Shown piece by piece: positions 6,995 to 13,924 of a stretch of DNA of 64,000 nucleotides. The position numbers and the translations under genes were made by a program. Origin of the DNA: Bacteroidales bacterium (lineage in GTDB: Bacteria > Bacteroidota > Bacteroidia > Bacteroidales > JAADJA01); NCBI GenBank assembly GCA_016783885.1, contig JADHVR010000010.1, positions 1 through 64,000 on the forward strand. The letters run 5' to 3'. The notes under the pieces were generated by a model, which did no database searches, had not been told where the DNA came from, and was given only the letters and a program-made list of their open reading frames with translations. Each line of letters opens with the position of its first letter. The stretch's first letter is position 1.

Positions 6995-7291
6995 TTACCT
7001 CTTCACCTCAAAAGACTTATTCGCCATTTCCTCTCCATTAACTATTATTGTTATCCGGTGTTCTCCCTCGAAGTGTTTACGAGTTGACATATCAGCAAAA
7101 GAATGTTTTCTTGAAAATGGATAATTTCCCGGATTGTATGTGTTTTCGGTAATTTTAAATATTAGATTTAAAAACTTTTCTTTATCAAATTCAGGATAAT
7201 ATTGCTTAATTATATCTCCAAACTTGTTAATGGAAGAGTTTGTAAAAAAATATCTTTTAGTCTTTCTGCCATTTTTTTCCTTTGTTTGCAT
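6995..7291 (-). CDS. small protein of unknown function
   Basis: 98 residues from the ATG at 7291 (MQTKEKNGRKTKRYFFTNSS). The frame stays open back to 7351, but that would deepen the overlap with the upstream gene. The protein is basic, with RKHSFADMSTRKHFEGEHRI and IIVNGEEMANKSFEVKR near its end. I do not recognise it. It overlaps the DUF1848 gene by 35 bp in another frame, so the two are probably co-transcribed. Confidence 0.5.
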   Translation of the reverse strand: MQTKEKNGRKTKRYFFTNSSINKFGDIIKQYYPEFDKEKFLNLIFKITENTYNPGNYPFSRKHSFADMSTRKHFEGEHRITIIVNGEEMANKSFEVKR

Positions 7292-8255
7292 AACAATATA
7301 CGCATAAATGACTGCAAGTGTTGTATGCCCCAATATCTTTGCTGTAAACACATCCGCAATCCTTTCTTTGACCTTTGTCTTTCAGGTTTGGTCTGATTCC
7401 AAAAAGATTGGTTTCATCAGGGTTATACCCCAAAAAATCCATTAGCTTTTTATCATTAGAAAATAATTTTATCATTAAATCATCATCAATACATTTGTTG
7501 TGCGTTATATAATATTTTTCCAGGTGAATATCTTCAGAACAGGTTGCTATTTCAAAATTAATATTTCTATTTTTCCACTTAATAAGTATTTTTCTTAATC
7601 CTTCTGCTAATTCTTCTTTTTTATCTTTTGAAAATTCGGAATTTAGAATATTACTTTTATTGAATATTTCCGGGATTTCTCTGATTAAATTATTTTGAAC
7701 TTTTTTGTAAACAGAAATATCAATAAAACTAAAAACCAGTTTGTTTGTATAATCAATTAATTCGTTTCCTAAATACCATATTTTCTTTAATAATTCCCTG
7801 ACAGTAAGTTCTGATGTCAATATAAGCGGGTCAAAACGCCATATTACTTTTTCTTTTCCAATTTCTTCAGAAAGCTGTTTAAATATTTTTTTTCTATCAC
7901 ACAATTTTGGAACATTCGGTTCAAATTTTTCGTTATCGTAATCATTTAATGTAAACTGAAAATAATAGTTTATGCCCAAATCATCGAGTTCCTTTAAATA
8001 GGGTATCATTGGTGAAGGATTTTTTGTCCAGAATATTATTACGCGTGTTTTCTTAAAAGAAATATATTGTGGTGTTTGATTAAAAGGATTTACCCATTTT
8101 ACATATCCTGAATTCTTTAAGCGGTTCATAAACCATTCTGAATAGAAGGCTGGAATATCAGTTGAACGACTTGCTGAAATAATTATTGGCGCTATTCCGT
8201 TAACTACTTCCCCATTATCTCTTTTTATTTCTGTTTTATTCCAGCCTGTAAACAT
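7257..8255 (-). CDS. DUF1848 family protein with C-terminal cysteine cluster
   Basis: 332 residues. The N-terminal IIISASRSTDIPAFYSEWF and FWTKNPSPMIPYL, and the middle WRFDPLI, are typical of DUF1848. The C-terminus carries five cysteines in C-x-C-x12-C-x3-C-x2-C spacing (DCGCVYSKDIGAYNTC, then SHLCVYCYAN), which suggests a bound metal or iron-sulphur cluster. Members of this family look like relatives of spore photoproduct lyase-type radical enzymes; that is a weak recollection and the activity is unknown. No signal peptide. Confidence 0.75.
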   Translation of the reverse strand: MFTGWNKTEIKRDNGEVVNGIAPIIISASRSTDIPAFYSEWFMNRLKNSGYVKWVNPFNQTPQYISFKKTRVIIFWTKNPSPMIPYLKELDDLGINYYFQFTLNDYDNEKFEPNVPKLCDRKKIFKQLSEEIGKEKVIWRFDPLILTSELTVRELLKKIWYLGNELIDYTNKLVFSFIDISVYKKVQNNLIREIPEIFNKSNILNSEFSKDKKEELAEGLRKILIKWKNRNINFEIATCSEDIHLEKYYITHNKCIDDDLMIKLFSNDKKLMDFLGYNPDETNLFGIRPNLKDKGQRKDCGCVYSKDIGAYNTCSHLCVYCYANKGKKWQKD

Positions 8256-8481: not shown

Positions 8482-10101
8482 CTAAGCACTTAATACACGA
8501 GATGTCATCTCATCAAATATTAATTCTGCAACAGCTTTTGTAGTCATACTATTGAAAATCATGTGCTCGTTATCATCAATTATTTTTGGTTGAATAACTA
8601 ATTTGATTATTCTGCTATCTGATCCATCTTCATTTGTGTATTTTTCAATCTCCTTTTGTATTTGTCCGGGAAGTTTGTTCGAGTCTTTAGCCTGTAAAGT
8701 TATTATAATATCGTTCTTTTCTTTATTCTTTTCAATTATTTGCTGACCGGTTGAATCATCCGGATGGAAATGATTGATACCACGGGCTACTTCAATTGGA
8801 AAAGACTTTTCTACAAACTTATTAATAAGAATATAACCTATGTCTTTGTTGTTGTAAAGCATATCTCCGAAAACTAAGAGTGTAACCTTATTGCCATGTT
8901 TATTAGTAATATGTACCCTTCTGATCGATTGTGGTATGATACTTATCTGACAGGATTCAAATACCTCATCCTCTTGTATTGAAGTAAAGACACTGTAAAG
9001 AATATCTGTAATTTCTTTATCAAAAAGTGAACTAACACAGTAATATAATATTTTATTCTTTCTAAAGGTTTCTTCTAATTCCGAATCAGGTTTACCAATT
9101 ATTACAACTTTTGCTTCAGGAATTTCCTGATTTATTATTTTAACATATTCAGGTCCGTTATCAGACAAAGATGCCGCATCTATAAAAATAACTTTGTTTT
9201 TTTCTTTGATTAAGGTACTTACAGCTTTGTTAACCGTATCTACACAATTAACAATACAGCCCAGGTCAGCAAGTCTCGGTAAATATCCTTTTACTTCATC
9301 TGAACTTTTACAAAGTAGAGTTACATTGCGGATATGAGCGTCTTGCAAATCCTTTTCAATATCAGCAGGCTCGATTCTAACTATCCAACTCTCATCAAGA
9401 GAATTTTCTTTTATGACAGATGGATTTACTGCTAATTTATGGTTAACTTCAATTATTTTGCCCGACAAAGGAGATGGAATCATTATCCTGGATTTATCAC
9501 TTAAAACAACTCCTGATAGAGGTAAGCCAGGATATGTTATATCATTAACTTCCGGAAGTAGCAAATTATTAATTTTACTTGAAATAAAATTGGGAAGTTG
9601 TCCACCTACCCGTACTGAACCGTCTTTGCCTTGTTGTACCCAGGCAATTTTATAGAATTGGATTGGTTTATGCGATGGCTCCCAGTCTAATTGTTTTGCT
9701 AATCTATGTTTAACTACCGTACTGAGAATGTCTTTTTGAGGTATAATCTGGTTTACAGATTTAAGAATTTCTTCAGGCGTAAATGGTTTTAATATGTAAT
9801 CTGAAGCATGTAATTTCACAGATTCAATCGCCGTATCCATGCTGGGATAACCTGTAACGATAGCTACCGGCAAATCAGGATCTTTCTTTCTTAGTTCATT
9901 AAATAAATCCATACCATCTATTTTATCCATTTTTAAGTCGAGAAAAACAAGATCATACTTATTGGATAGCGCTAATTCTAAGCCTTCGTAAGGCTCTGTT
10001 TTAGAGTCCACTTTGTACCCTTTATTCGATAAAATTCTTGTGAAGCTTTCACAAACAACGGCCTCATCATCAATTACCAGTATTGAATATTCTGAGTTCA
10101 T
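8482..10101 (-). CDS. response regulator with internal GcvH/lipoyl-like domain
   Basis: 539 residues. Residues 1-122 are a receiver domain: D11/D12, phospho-acceptor D55 in LVFLDLKM, the T/Y switch region TGYPS and K105 in YILKPF. Residues about 150-250 resemble glycine-cleavage H protein (KIAWVQQGKDGSVRVGGQLP, then PLSGVVLS, IPSPLSGKIIEVN, DESWIVRIEP). K203 (SDKS) lies 11 residues before the G of PSPLSG, the spacing of the lipoylated lysine in GcvH (VKAAS...SPVSG). Residues about 256-390 look like a second, degenerate receiver (VIFIDAAS). The last 150 residues are unassigned. No DNA-binding domain is seen, so the output is probably protein-protein. A strong GGAGG site precedes the ATG. It lies in a minus-strand cluster with a sigma-54 activator and a histidine kinase. 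Confidence 0.85.
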   Translation of the reverse strand: MNSEYSILVIDDEAVVCESFTRILSNKGYKVDSKTEPYEGLELALSNKYDLVFLDLKMDKIDGMDLFNELRKKDPDLPVAIVTGYPSMDTAIESVKLHASDYILKPFTPEEILKSVNQIIPQKDILSTVVKHRLAKQLDWEPSHKPIQFYKIAWVQQGKDGSVRVGGQLPNFISSKINNLLLPEVNDITYPGLPLSGVVLSDKSRIMIPSPLSGKIIEVNHKLAVNPSVIKENSLDESWIVRIEPADIEKDLQDAHIRNVTLLCKSSDEVKGYLPRLADLGCIVNCVDTVNKAVSTLIKEKNKVIFIDAASLSDNGPEYVKIINQEIPEAKVVIIGKPDSELEETFRKNKILYYCVSSLFDKEITDILYSVFTSIQEDEVFESCQISIIPQSIRRVHITNKHGNKVTLLVFGDMLYNNKDIGYILINKFVEKSFPIEVARGINHFHPDDSTGQQIIEKNKEKNDIIITLQAKDSNKLPGQIQKEIEKYTNEDGSDSRIIKLVIQPKIIDDNEHMIFNSMTTKAVAELIFDEMTSRVLSA

Positions 10102-10111: not shown

Positions 10112-10508
10112 GTTTTTTAAATTAATATTTTGGCTTTCAAGCCTTTTTTTTATTTAATTATTTTCAATTTATACTTAGGCAATAAGTATTCCAGAATTCT
10201 TTATCAAAATGAAGTTGAAATTCATTCGTCGCGAATAGCCTTATAATCAGACAATAGCTGAAATAATAATAAATAAATTGCAGAATGATTTTCTGATTAT
10301 TAAGAATAAATAATGATTTTTTGTTTAAAGAATTAATACAGTGTATAAAATAATATACACTTATTTGCAAAATAATTACTTTAAAAACGGAAGGTTATCA
10401 TTAATCTAAATTTTATTCTTTTGTTATCTCTGCGCCTTTGCGCCTCTGCGTTTAGAATATTTATTTTATTGAACGCAGAGACACAGAGATATTATTTGCT
10501 AAATATCA
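10112..10508. other. long intergenic gap within the two-component cluster
   Basis: About 400 bp of AT-rich DNA separates two regulator genes read in the same direction. Apart from the palindromic repeat at 10426-10490 I see no gene. A 68-codon frame on the minus strand lacks any start-site or protein-like signal and was rejected. The gap suggests the GcvH-domain regulator has its own promoter. Confidence 0.5.
10426..10490. repeat. CTCTGCG-type palindromic repeat, copy A
   Basis: The left arm (ATCTCTGCGCCTTTGCGCC, then TCTGCGTT) and the right arm (AACGCAGAGACACAGAGAT) are imperfect inverted copies around a 19-nt AT-rich centre. The same CTTTGCG/CTCTGCG words recur in opposed arms at 63062-63188, which marks a dispersed family. 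Confidence 0.6.
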
Positions 10509-11942
10509 TTATGCGTAATCTTTAGAACTTATTTTATACATTTTTAAAAGTTGATGAAAGTTAGTACGTTGTATTCCCACATCTTCTGCTGCATTGCTGA
10601 CATTTCCGCCGGACCGTTGAAGTGCCTCAATAAGAAATTGTTTTTCTATTTCCCTGACAGCATTTTCTTGTATTTGTTGTTTAAGCTCTTTGAATTCATT
10701 CCATTTTTGCGGCAGTTTGTGTATAAAATCTTGAAACTGTTGATTCTTAAATTCATACGGCAGATGGGCCGGTTCAATAGTTTCAGAATCACAAAGAATA
10801 GCCAGCCGTTCCACAAGATTTTTTAACTCCCTGACATTCCCGGGCCAATAGTAGTTATCTATTAATGTAATGGTTTCGGGAGCGAAATTTTTTACTGTTG
10901 TTTTATTTTTCTTTCGAAATCTTTCTAAAAAAATTAAGGCTAACCTGAGAATATCTTCTTTGCGTTCACGTAACGGAGGGATATGAATTGGAACTACCTG
11001 CAAACGATAAAAAAGGTCTTCACGAAAAGTCCCTTCTTTAATCATCTTTAATAGGTTTTTATTAGTGGCAACAATTAAACGAATATCAATTTTTCGTTCA
11101 ATAATATCACCAACCTTTTTTATTTCACAAGTTTCAAGCACTCTTAATAATTTACTTTGTGTTTCAAGACTTATATTTGAAACCTCGTCTAAAAACAAAG
11201 TTCCTTTATCTGCAATTTCAAAAAGACCTTTTTTAGTTGCTATAGCTCCGGTAAATGAACCTTTAACATGGCCAAAAAGTTCGCTCTCCAGAAGAGTTGG
11301 AGCTAAGGCGCTGCAATCACAAGCTATGAATGGTCTATCATTTCGCAGGCTAAGTCTGTGAATCGCTTTCGCAATGAGTTCTTTACCTGTCCCGCTTTCT
11401 CCTGTAATAAGGACTGTTCCGTTTGTCGTCGCCACACGTTTTATAATTGAAAAAATTTTCTCCATATTAGAGGTTTTCCCAATTATTCCTTCAAATCCCT
11501 GATACATGTGTAGCTCTTTTCTTAAAGCTATGTTTTCTTTCAGCAATGCCGAATGTTTAATTACTTTCTCAATAATTATTTTCAGTTCATCCGGTGTAAA
11601 AGGTTTGCTTACATAATCGGCAGCTCCAAGTTTAATAGCTTCAATTGCTGTTTGAATGGTAGCATATCCTGTAATGATAACAACTTCTGAAGATATTCCC
11701 AATGCCTTAATTCTTTTTAATATTTCCATTCCATCTAAATCCGGCATTACAATATCAAGAAGTATCAGATCATAATTATCCGTTAATGCTTCTTTCAAGC
11801 CTTGTTGAGGATTTGTTTCAATTCTTATTTCATATTTTTTTTCCAGTGACAAAATGCGCTCACAACTTAATCCGACAATAGGTTCATCATCAATAACCAA
11901 TATCCTGCACTTCACTAAATTATTTTTTATAATATCATTCAT
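10509..11942 (-). CDS. sigma-54-dependent NtrC-family response regulator
   Basis: 477 residues with the full NtrC layout. The receiver covers 1-130 with D63 as phospho-acceptor. The AAA+ domain covers about 150-385 with Walker A GESGTGKE (181-188), the sigma-54 contact loop GSFTGA (228-233, S in place of the usual A) and Walker B GTLFLDEV (247-254). The R-fingers lie in FREDLFYRL. A Fis-type helix-turn-helix follows at about 446-473 (GGNVSNAAEDVGIQRTNFHQ). It should open sigma-54 promoters when phosphorylated by the kinase encoded 53 bp upstream; RpoN is encoded at 42.9 kb. AAGGAGAT precedes the ATG. The target genes are not in the cluster; only a ferredoxin fragment remains upstream of the kinase. 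Confidence 0.95.
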   Translation of the reverse strand: MNDIIKNNLVKCRILVIDDEPIVGLSCERILSLEKKYEIRIETNPQQGLKEALTDNYDLILLDIVMPDLDGMEILKRIKALGISSEVVIITGYATIQTAIEAIKLGAADYVSKPFTPDELKIIIEKVIKHSALLKENIALRKELHMYQGFEGIIGKTSNMEKIFSIIKRVATTNGTVLITGESGTGKELIAKAIHRLSLRNDRPFIACDCSALAPTLLESELFGHVKGSFTGAIATKKGLFEIADKGTLFLDEVSNISLETQSKLLRVLETCEIKKVGDIIERKIDIRLIVATNKNLLKMIKEGTFREDLFYRLQVVPIHIPPLRERKEDILRLALIFLERFRKKNKTTVKNFAPETITLIDNYYWPGNVRELKNLVERLAILCDSETIEPAHLPYEFKNQQFQDFIHKLPQKWNEFKELKQQIQENAVREIEKQFLIEALQRSGGNVSNAAEDVGIQRTNFHQLLKMYKISSKDYA

Positions 11943-11995: not shown

Positions 11996-13924
11996 TCATT
12001 CCATCATTTTATCATTTTTAACAGGTAAAAAGATACTGAATGTTGTACCTTCGCCTTCTTTACTCTCACATTCTATATAACCCCCATGTTGCTGAGTAAT
12101 TCCATAACTAATGCTTAATCCTAAACCAGTTCCCTTACCTGCCGGTTTGGTTGTATAAAACGGATCAAATATTTTATTTAGATTTTCTTTTTTGATTCCA
12201 CAACCTGTATCATTTATAGAAATAACAAAATGATTTTGTTCAATTGATGTAGCTATTGTTATTGTACCTGTGTTTGGAATCGCTTCTCCGGCATTAAGAA
12301 TTGTGTTAAGAAACACTTGTTGTAATTGGTTTTTATCGCCATAAAAATCCGGAATATTTTTTAAGTAATTTTCTTCAATAACAATACTTCTAAACTCTTT
12401 TTGATTTTTAATCAGTTTAAGAATTTGATGTAAAATATCATTAATATTTAAAAATTCTTTTTTAAAAGGGGTTTGTCGGGCAAAATCAAGAAGCCCTTTG
12501 ACGATTTCACGCACCCTTGTAGTTTCTCTTATTATCACATCCAAATCATTAATGTCTTCTTCTGTATTATTTTTCTTTTGTTTAAGTAAATGGGCAAATG
12601 TTAGAACCCCGGTAAGAGGATTATTTATTTCATGGGCTATTCCGGCGGATAATCTTCCAATAGAAGCAAGTTTTTCACTTTGAAAGATCTGTTGTTGAGT
12701 GATTCTTTGTAATTCTTTCTCACGTTGTTCGATAGATTCAGCCATCCGGTTAATTGTATGGCAGAGGATTCCCATCTCACCGGAAAAATGGATGTTACAA
12801 CGGGCAGTAAGATCGCCGGCAATTATTTTTTTACTCATAGTCATAATATTATCCATTGGCTTGAGCAACTTTCTGGCATAAAAAAACAACAGGAGCAGAC
12901 TGGCAATTGCACTTATACTCACCATAATAATAAAAAACACTATAATGACCTTTTGTGGCTCTTTATATGGTTCTTCAAGCAAGCCTACATAGAGTGAACC
13001 AATTATCTTATTATCCGGATCCCGGATGGGTTCATAGCTTGTAATATACCAGTTATTAACTACAAATGCCCGGTCATCCCATACCTTACCTTTATTAATA
13101 ACATGATCATAAACTTCAGAACTCATTCTGCTTCCGGTAGCTCTTTGATCATTCGTTCCCTTAACATTCGTGGAAATTCGTAGATCATCAAAAAAAATAG
13201 TTGCAGTTCCTATATCTTCCCCTTCGTAACTCTGATCCTGAAAAACCTCTGATTTGATTTTGTCAACGATTTCAAAATGATTATTTAAAAGATAGCCACC
13301 TATAAGAAGTCCTAATCTTTTTTCAGTATCATTAGAGTCTAATGATACGAAAGGAACAGCGGCGGCAATGATCATACCCCTTTTTTCGATTTTTTTTAAA
13401 ACGGAACGTGACTTAGGGGTATCTTCTATTTTGATGATCGCCCGGCTAGCCAATTCTTCACTTTCATTTTGCAATATTTTTTGTGAGACCACCATAGTTC
13501 CTTTTGCCGGTTTCCATTCTTCTAATACTTTTTTAATTATGGGTATTTCAGATATATCATCACCTTTTTGTTGCGGATTATGCGCACGATATATTACACG
13601 CCCATCTGTCCCGACAAGAGTTAGCATTTCCATACCACTGTTATTGTATATATTTTGTAAAACTTTTCCAAGGTCTCCTTTAACCTCTTGTTCCAGAGGA
13701 TATGATATTTTTCGACGAATAGATATTGCTTTCAGAACCTGTTCAATTTGATCAATAGAATTGTTGTAAATATCACGAGCTGAATTCAAATCAAGGCGGA
13801 CACGGGTTTGTACCTCTGAAAAATATACATTCCCAACATAAAGAGATGTAACAACAGCTAATACAATATTAGAAACTAAAATAATTATAATTAATCCTGT
13901 TGATAGTTTTAATCGAATTGACAT
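11996..13924 (-). CDS. membrane sensor histidine kinase (cache-HAMP-HisKA)
   Basis: 642 residues. TM1 at about 8-30 and TM2 at about 326-350 enclose a periplasmic sensor of nearly 300 residues that looks like a double or extended cache domain (MLTLVGTDGRVIYRAHN, DNKIIGSLYVGLLE). HAMP lies at about 349-401. The phospho-acceptor H431 is in AGIAHEINNPLTGVL. The ATPase domain shows an N-box (FLNTILNAGEAI), G1 (DTGCGI) and G2 (GKGTGLGLSI) and ends near residue 637. This pattern is that of NtrB/ZraS-like kinases that partner sigma-54 activators, and the activator is encoded 53 bp downstream. The signal is not evident; cache domains often bind small organic acids or amino acids. Confidence 0.92.
   Translation of the reverse strand: MSIRLKLSTGLIIIILVSNIVLAVVTSLYVGNVYFSEVQTRVRLDLNSARDIYNNSIDQIEQVLKAISIRRKISYPLEQEVKGDLGKVLQNIYNNSGMEMLTLVGTDGRVIYRAHNPQQKGDDISEIPIIKKVLEEWKPAKGTMVVSQKILQNESEELASRAIIKIEDTPKSRSVLKKIEKRGMIIAAAVPFVSLDSNDTEKRLGLLIGGYLLNNHFEIVDKIKSEVFQDQSYEGEDIGTATIFFDDLRISTNVKGTNDQRATGSRMSSEVYDHVINKGKVWDDRAFVVNNWYITSYEPIRDPDNKIIGSLYVGLLEEPYKEPQKVIIVFFIIMVSISAIASLLLLFFYARKLLKPMDNIMTMSKKIIAGDLTARCNIHFSGEMGILCHTINRMAESIEQREKELQRITQQQIFQSEKLASIGRLSAGIAHEINNPLTGVLTFAHLLKQKKNNTEEDINDLDVIIRETTRVREIVKGLLDFARQTPFKKEFLNINDILHQILKLIKNQKEFRSIVIEENYLKNIPDFYGDKNQLQQVFLNTILNAGEAIPNTGTITIATSIEQNHFVISINDTGCGIKKENLNKIFDPFYTTKPAGKGTGLGLSISYGITQQHGGYIECESKEGEGTTFSIFLPVKNDKMME

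Follow-up and report, generated by a model that had tools for sequence, protein, structure and literature searches.

The protein described here, encoded in the genome of a Bacteroidales bacterium, appears to belong to a large and seemingly undescribed group: domains that resemble the glycine cleavage H-protein (GcvH), are free of lipoate, and have been reused in redox-linked signaling. Its gene occupies positions 8482 to 10101 on the reverse strand of the window, by which we mean the whole 64,000-nucleotide stretch of DNA that was analyzed. The open reading frame and its Pfam matches give a protein of 539 amino acids, in which a receiver (REC1) is followed by a GcvH-like, a receiver-like, and a HycI-like region. 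Databases name such GcvH-like domains after the glycine cleavage H-protein, a label that points to C1 metabolism and the chemistry of lipoate. However, most of these domains are without the lipoyl attachment motif and are found alongside two-component systems and, in the Bacteroidota, NrfD/multiheme-cytochrome complexes; recognizing this corrects a likely annotation error.

All parts of the gene are read on the reverse strand. REC1 (residues 7 to 116, positions 9754 to 10083) matches Pfam Response_reg with an E value of 5.4e-32, and its phospho-acceptor set, D11, D12, D55, T83, and K105, is intact both here and in all full-length orthologues. The GcvH-like domain covers about residues 151 to 253 (9343 to 9651); the GCV_H match over residues 153 to 253 has an E value of 2.9e-11 and 43.8 bits, against a curated cutoff of 22.2, and is thus well above chance. 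This order, a receiver and then a region resembling GcvH, had been proposed in an initial annotation, which also gave an accurate description of the remainder as a degenerate second receiver and a domain without assignment. The receiver-like region (about residues 256 to 375, positions 8977 to 9336) is without the N-terminal acidic pair and, when searched alone, matches Response_reg at an E value of 0.016, under the curated cutoff. No Pfam match was found in the C terminus (residues 395 to 539, positions 8485 to 8919), and none to a known DNA-binding or enzymatic output domain within residues 117 to 539; PADLOC gave no match for the protein itself. AlphaFold2 models built from four-sequence alignments had a mean pLDDT of 45 for the whole protein and 50 for the C terminus, the latter with no Foldseek match at E ≤ 0.001, and so we build no claim about the fold on them.

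The same annotation had seen in K203 (codon at 9493 to 9495, reverse strand) the spacing expected of a lipoylated lysine, and the spacing is exact: K203 sits 8 residues before P211 of the PSPLSG motif, as in true H-proteins (ESVKAxxxxxxPVSG). The lysine itself is not conserved, a result that the annotation had named as part of what would refute its lipoyl reading. In the alignment, residue 203 reads K, K, N, K, K, and G in the six orthologous sequences (L073, which is off by one residue in the regular-expression count, was read from the alignment), and nearby P209, S210, P211, G214, N220, W239, and I240 do not vary. The published lipoyl attachment motif is E-x2-K-x10-G (PMC4518038); in the window protein, its glycine is correctly placed and Leu200 replaces its glutamate, likewise in all six orthologues. 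In the wider family, a lysine is found at the lipoyl position in 13 of 13 stand-alone H-proteins and in 9 of 52 REC-GcvH fusions (43 are without it), and the glutamate and lysine of the motif occur together in none of the 52. These counts leave out some REC-GcvH and other GcvH-like sequences with no match to the regular-expression motif; the REC-GcvH sequences outside the counts, among those listed, have G or E at this position. Many other long GcvH-like proteins have a glycine there, within an N/D-G turn.

A search for lipoylation and glycine cleavage genes, suggested at the outset as a check, turned up lipA, a LipB/LplA-type transferase, GcvH, and GcvP, all on contigs of the genome other than that of the window. 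Lipoate should therefore be available in the cell, which does not single out the window protein. The genomes of the N- and G-bearing orthologues also encode lipA and a LipB/LplA-type enzyme. The third GCV_H match in the genome, a weak one (C34), comes from a short frame that resembles a biotin carrier and is irrelevant here. With the lipoyl lysine not conserved, the window protein looks like a lipoate-free GcvH-like protein rather than the lipoylated sensor that had been envisioned, and the most likely view of K203 is that the hairpin accepts any of several residues at its tip, lysine among them.

The domain tree places the window protein with lipoate-free relatives. A supported branch (97/95) parts the clade containing the window group from all H-proteins, the genome's own included, and the neighbors of the window group are lipoate-free GcvH-like proteins and REC-GcvH fusions of the 384-amino-acid type. 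Given the few columns in the tree and the long branch of the window group, finer placement is uncertain.

In a whole-protein search of 396 Bacteroidota genomes, the window's own included, at least 28 of the other 395 proved to have REC-GcvH fusions (L019-L046). Most of these come in tandem, one protein of about 263 amino acids and one of about 384. Across 20 regions that were compared, the following gene order recurs: a Tat-type 4Fe-4S protein, an NrfD-family membrane protein, a multiheme cytochrome c, a histidine kinase, REC-GcvH(263), and REC-GcvH(384), often with further cytochromes and a cytochrome b561-like protein. The 19 kb regions L048-L066 show a conserved Bacteroidota operon of Fe-S, NrfD, and multiheme cytochrome genes with a kinase and two REC-GcvH genes, which has the appearance of a redox complex equipped with a two-component system of its own; we found no description of this operon. 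The sensor region of the L051 kinase has CYACH and CSEADCH motifs (CxxCH-type), from which it may be supposed that this kinase binds heme. We also found no paper on a REC-GcvH protein in the open literature that was searched, although one may exist elsewhere.

Other genomes of the window's order encode receiver-less GcvH-like proteins of 240 and 560 amino acids, and in some cases a kinase and NrfD genes are adjacent. Proteins of about 560 amino acids, such as those at L093 (328 to 2004), L074, L083, L087, and similar loci, combine a long N-terminal part, a membrane segment, and a lipoate-free GcvH-like domain; the N-terminal part is reminiscent of a periplasmic binding protein. The GcvH-like profile, which also detects true H-proteins, matches in 126 of 148 genomes from the phylum to which Desulfobacter vibrioformis belongs, and many of these have several proteins of 230 to 340 amino acids. 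A protein of 310 amino acids in a MAG named Deltaproteobacteria (L142, 9428 to 10360) has N-terminal motifs rich in Cys, and its GcvH-like domain (9.7e-17) does not have the lipoyl lysine. Near it are two receiver-containing regulators, one of them NtrC-type, and what appears from its sequence to be a gene for a CooS-like carbon monoxide dehydrogenase.

We tentatively suggest that lipoate-free GcvH-like domains form a widespread module, still without a name, that serves docking or sensing in bacterial redox signaling, and of which the window protein would be an extreme member. In the Bacteroidota, such domains are found joined to receivers or to long proteins of membrane type, with histidine kinases and NrfD-type quinone/cytochrome complexes nearby, and relatives are numerous in the Desulfobacter phylum. 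The window protein might have gained its receiver-like and dead HycI-like domains, a suggestion that we make with the same reserve. The family offers a tangible case for studying the role of the H-protein fold when lipoate is missing; it may link a redox complex with the kinase belonging to it.

The immediate setting of the gene is a three-gene cassette, with a histidine kinase and an NtrC-type regulator upstream on the same strand and the REC-GcvH gene third. The kinase (11996 to 13924, reverse strand) has Pfam sCache_3_3, HAMP, HisKA, and HATPase_c matches, and the second gene (10509 to 11942, reverse strand) encodes an NtrC-type sigma-54-dependent response regulator (Sigma54_activat, 3.4e-67; Response_reg; HTH_8); both neighbors had been correctly recognized in the initial annotation. 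The gene order is constant at all orthologous loci (L001/L070, L002/L071, L069, L072, and L073, of which L001 comes from a Bacteroidetes MAG), and the outer flanks vary. Among 393 genomes searched, a relative spanning the region from the GcvH-like domain to the C terminus, at 53 to 85% identity, was found in five other genomes of the same order and was absent from the four genomes of the window's own genus. The cassette is thus patchy in its distribution and self-contained. At L002 (8001 to 9614) and L071, the orthologous third gene is broken into two reading frames, of 121 and 357 amino acids; in this MAG it is either a pseudogene or an assembly error.

The gap of 407 bases between the NtrC-type and REC-GcvH genes contains a strong hairpin at 10425 to 10491 (-27.7 kcal/mol, z -5.5). 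It is built on the repeat CGCAGAGGCGCAAAGGCGCAGAG, which has six copies in the genome within 3 mismatches, compared to none for the backward control, and it is possibly a dispersed repeat element or a terminator. Matches to the sigma-54 promoter pattern were at chance level across the window, and none was found in the gap preceding the REC-GcvH gene. Directly downstream of the cassette, on the same strand, lies a gene for a DUF1848 protein (7257 to 8255; 5.3e-90), possibly radical-SAM-like, with a C-terminal CSHLCVYCY motif.

From the anatomy of the protein and its gene order we infer a mechanism to which we would give an even chance: a phosphorylatable regulator that shares its kinase with the sigma-54 activator and uses its lipoate-free GcvH-like domain for docking. 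The Cache-type histidine kinase would most likely phosphorylate REC1 alongside the sigma-54 activator, or in competition with it. The protein would act as a response regulator without a recognizable DNA-binding domain, and its GcvH-like domain, as a lipoate-free relative of the H-protein, would be a protein-docking module. K203 would be no more than a turn residue, at the point of the hairpin that carries lipoate in true H-proteins. We propose that phosphorylation of D55 would change the binding of a partner by the GcvH-like and C-terminal (HycI-like) domains. Counting for this explanation are the intact receiver sites, the constant gene order of the cassette, the loss of the lipoyl motif, the supported branch that sets the window group apart from H-proteins, and the kinases and NrfD/cytochrome genes that adjoin its relatives. 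Counting against it are the lysine in four of the six orthologues, the superficial resemblance of the hairpin DKSRIMIPSP to an E2 lipoyl motif, the few-column tree with its long window-group branch, and the poor structure models.

There are two main rivals to the shared-kinase docking model. It is possible, if unlikely, that REC1 merely drains phosphate from the kinase, tuning the NtrC-type regulator, with the other domains as stabilizing passengers. An intact REC1 in a protein without a DNA-binding domain would fit such a role, as would a cassette whose single kinase is accompanied by another receiver protein. However, the fraction of invariant positions among the five full-length orthologues is 0.47 in the C-terminal region, 0.43 in the receiver-like region, and 0.34 in the GcvH-like domain; the first two are thus conserved at least as well as the third, which would not be expected of passenger domains.

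The second rival starts from the C-terminal domain. By eye, we noticed that the spacing of G412-D-x-L...G422 is that of the HycI loop, G-N-x-L-L-x-D-E-G-x-G; the most distant orthologue reads GDLLYTDHGIG here. In profile-profile comparison by hhalign, the P value was 0.0013 for a single HycI group (no column shuffle out of 300 scored as high) and 0.0059 for all HycI (1 of 300), and the alignment is collinear across the G-x-x-L...G loop and an IxxxxxxxPGxI stretch. The metal ligands of HybD are Glu, Asp, and His. At the place of the Glu, the aligned orthologues have K, L, I, or H, and at that of the Asp they have Q or L; the His region lies outside the alignment. With evidence of this moderate strength, the domain is probably an inactivated or degenerate hydrogenase-maturation protease of the HycI/HybD type. 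One can envision a hydrogenase-linked checkpoint, in which this domain would monitor, or shield, either a hydrogenase-type large subunit or the maturation of that subunit, with the GcvH-like domain as the link to the receiver. The collinear alignment would agree with this, as would the related cassette in G180 (kinase, NtrC-type regulator, and a REC-REC third gene without GcvH), which adjoins a HycI gene and Hdr-like genes. Nonetheless, we regard such a checkpoint as rather improbable: the homology to HycI is moderate and without structural support, no gene for a hydrogenase turned up next to the window gene, and none lies within the 3.3 kb locus of the HycI that the genome itself encodes.

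Last and very improbable is lipoylation of K203 in a sensor of redox state or of C1 or acyl supply, since the correct spacing, the lysine retained in most orthologues, the lipoylation and glycine cleavage genes elsewhere in the genome, and the precedent of lipoylated GcvH-L in oxidative-stress-linked systems (PMC4518038) are set against N and G variants in genomes that do have lipA and LipB/LplA-type genes, the loss of the motif Glu to Leu in all orthologues, a wider fusion family mostly without the lysine, and a window in which no lipoylation gene was found.

Compared to GcvH itself (PF01597), the window domain belongs to the same Pfam family above the curated cutoff and shares the hairpin-to-PxSG spacing; it differs in having neither a conserved lipoyl lysine nor the motif glutamate, in being fused behind a receiver, and in lying across the supported branch. 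GcvH-L, from sirtuin/macrodomain operons, is likewise related to the H-protein and serves redox-linked signaling instead of glycine cleavage, with a conserved lysine in E-x2-K-x10-G that is lipoylated by a dedicated LplA2 (PMC4518038), whereas the window domain keeps neither the Glu nor a conserved lysine. LbpA, from Hdr-like sulfur oxidation, is also GcvH-like and linked to redox enzymes, but the lysine that is strictly conserved in all 95 LbpAs studied (PMC6067878) is variable in the window group. The kinase/NtrC-type/REC-REC cassette at L067 and L125 begins, like that of the window, with a kinase and then an NtrC-type regulator, both related to those of the window; its third gene, however, encodes two receivers and a linker, without a GcvH-like domain. 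The Bacteroidota tandem pairs (L019-L046 and L048-L066) are without the receiver-like and HycI-like C-terminal parts and lie in cytochrome operons, in one case (L051) with CxxCH-type motifs in the kinase, but they join a receiver to a following GcvH-like domain, beside a histidine kinase, just as the window protein does.
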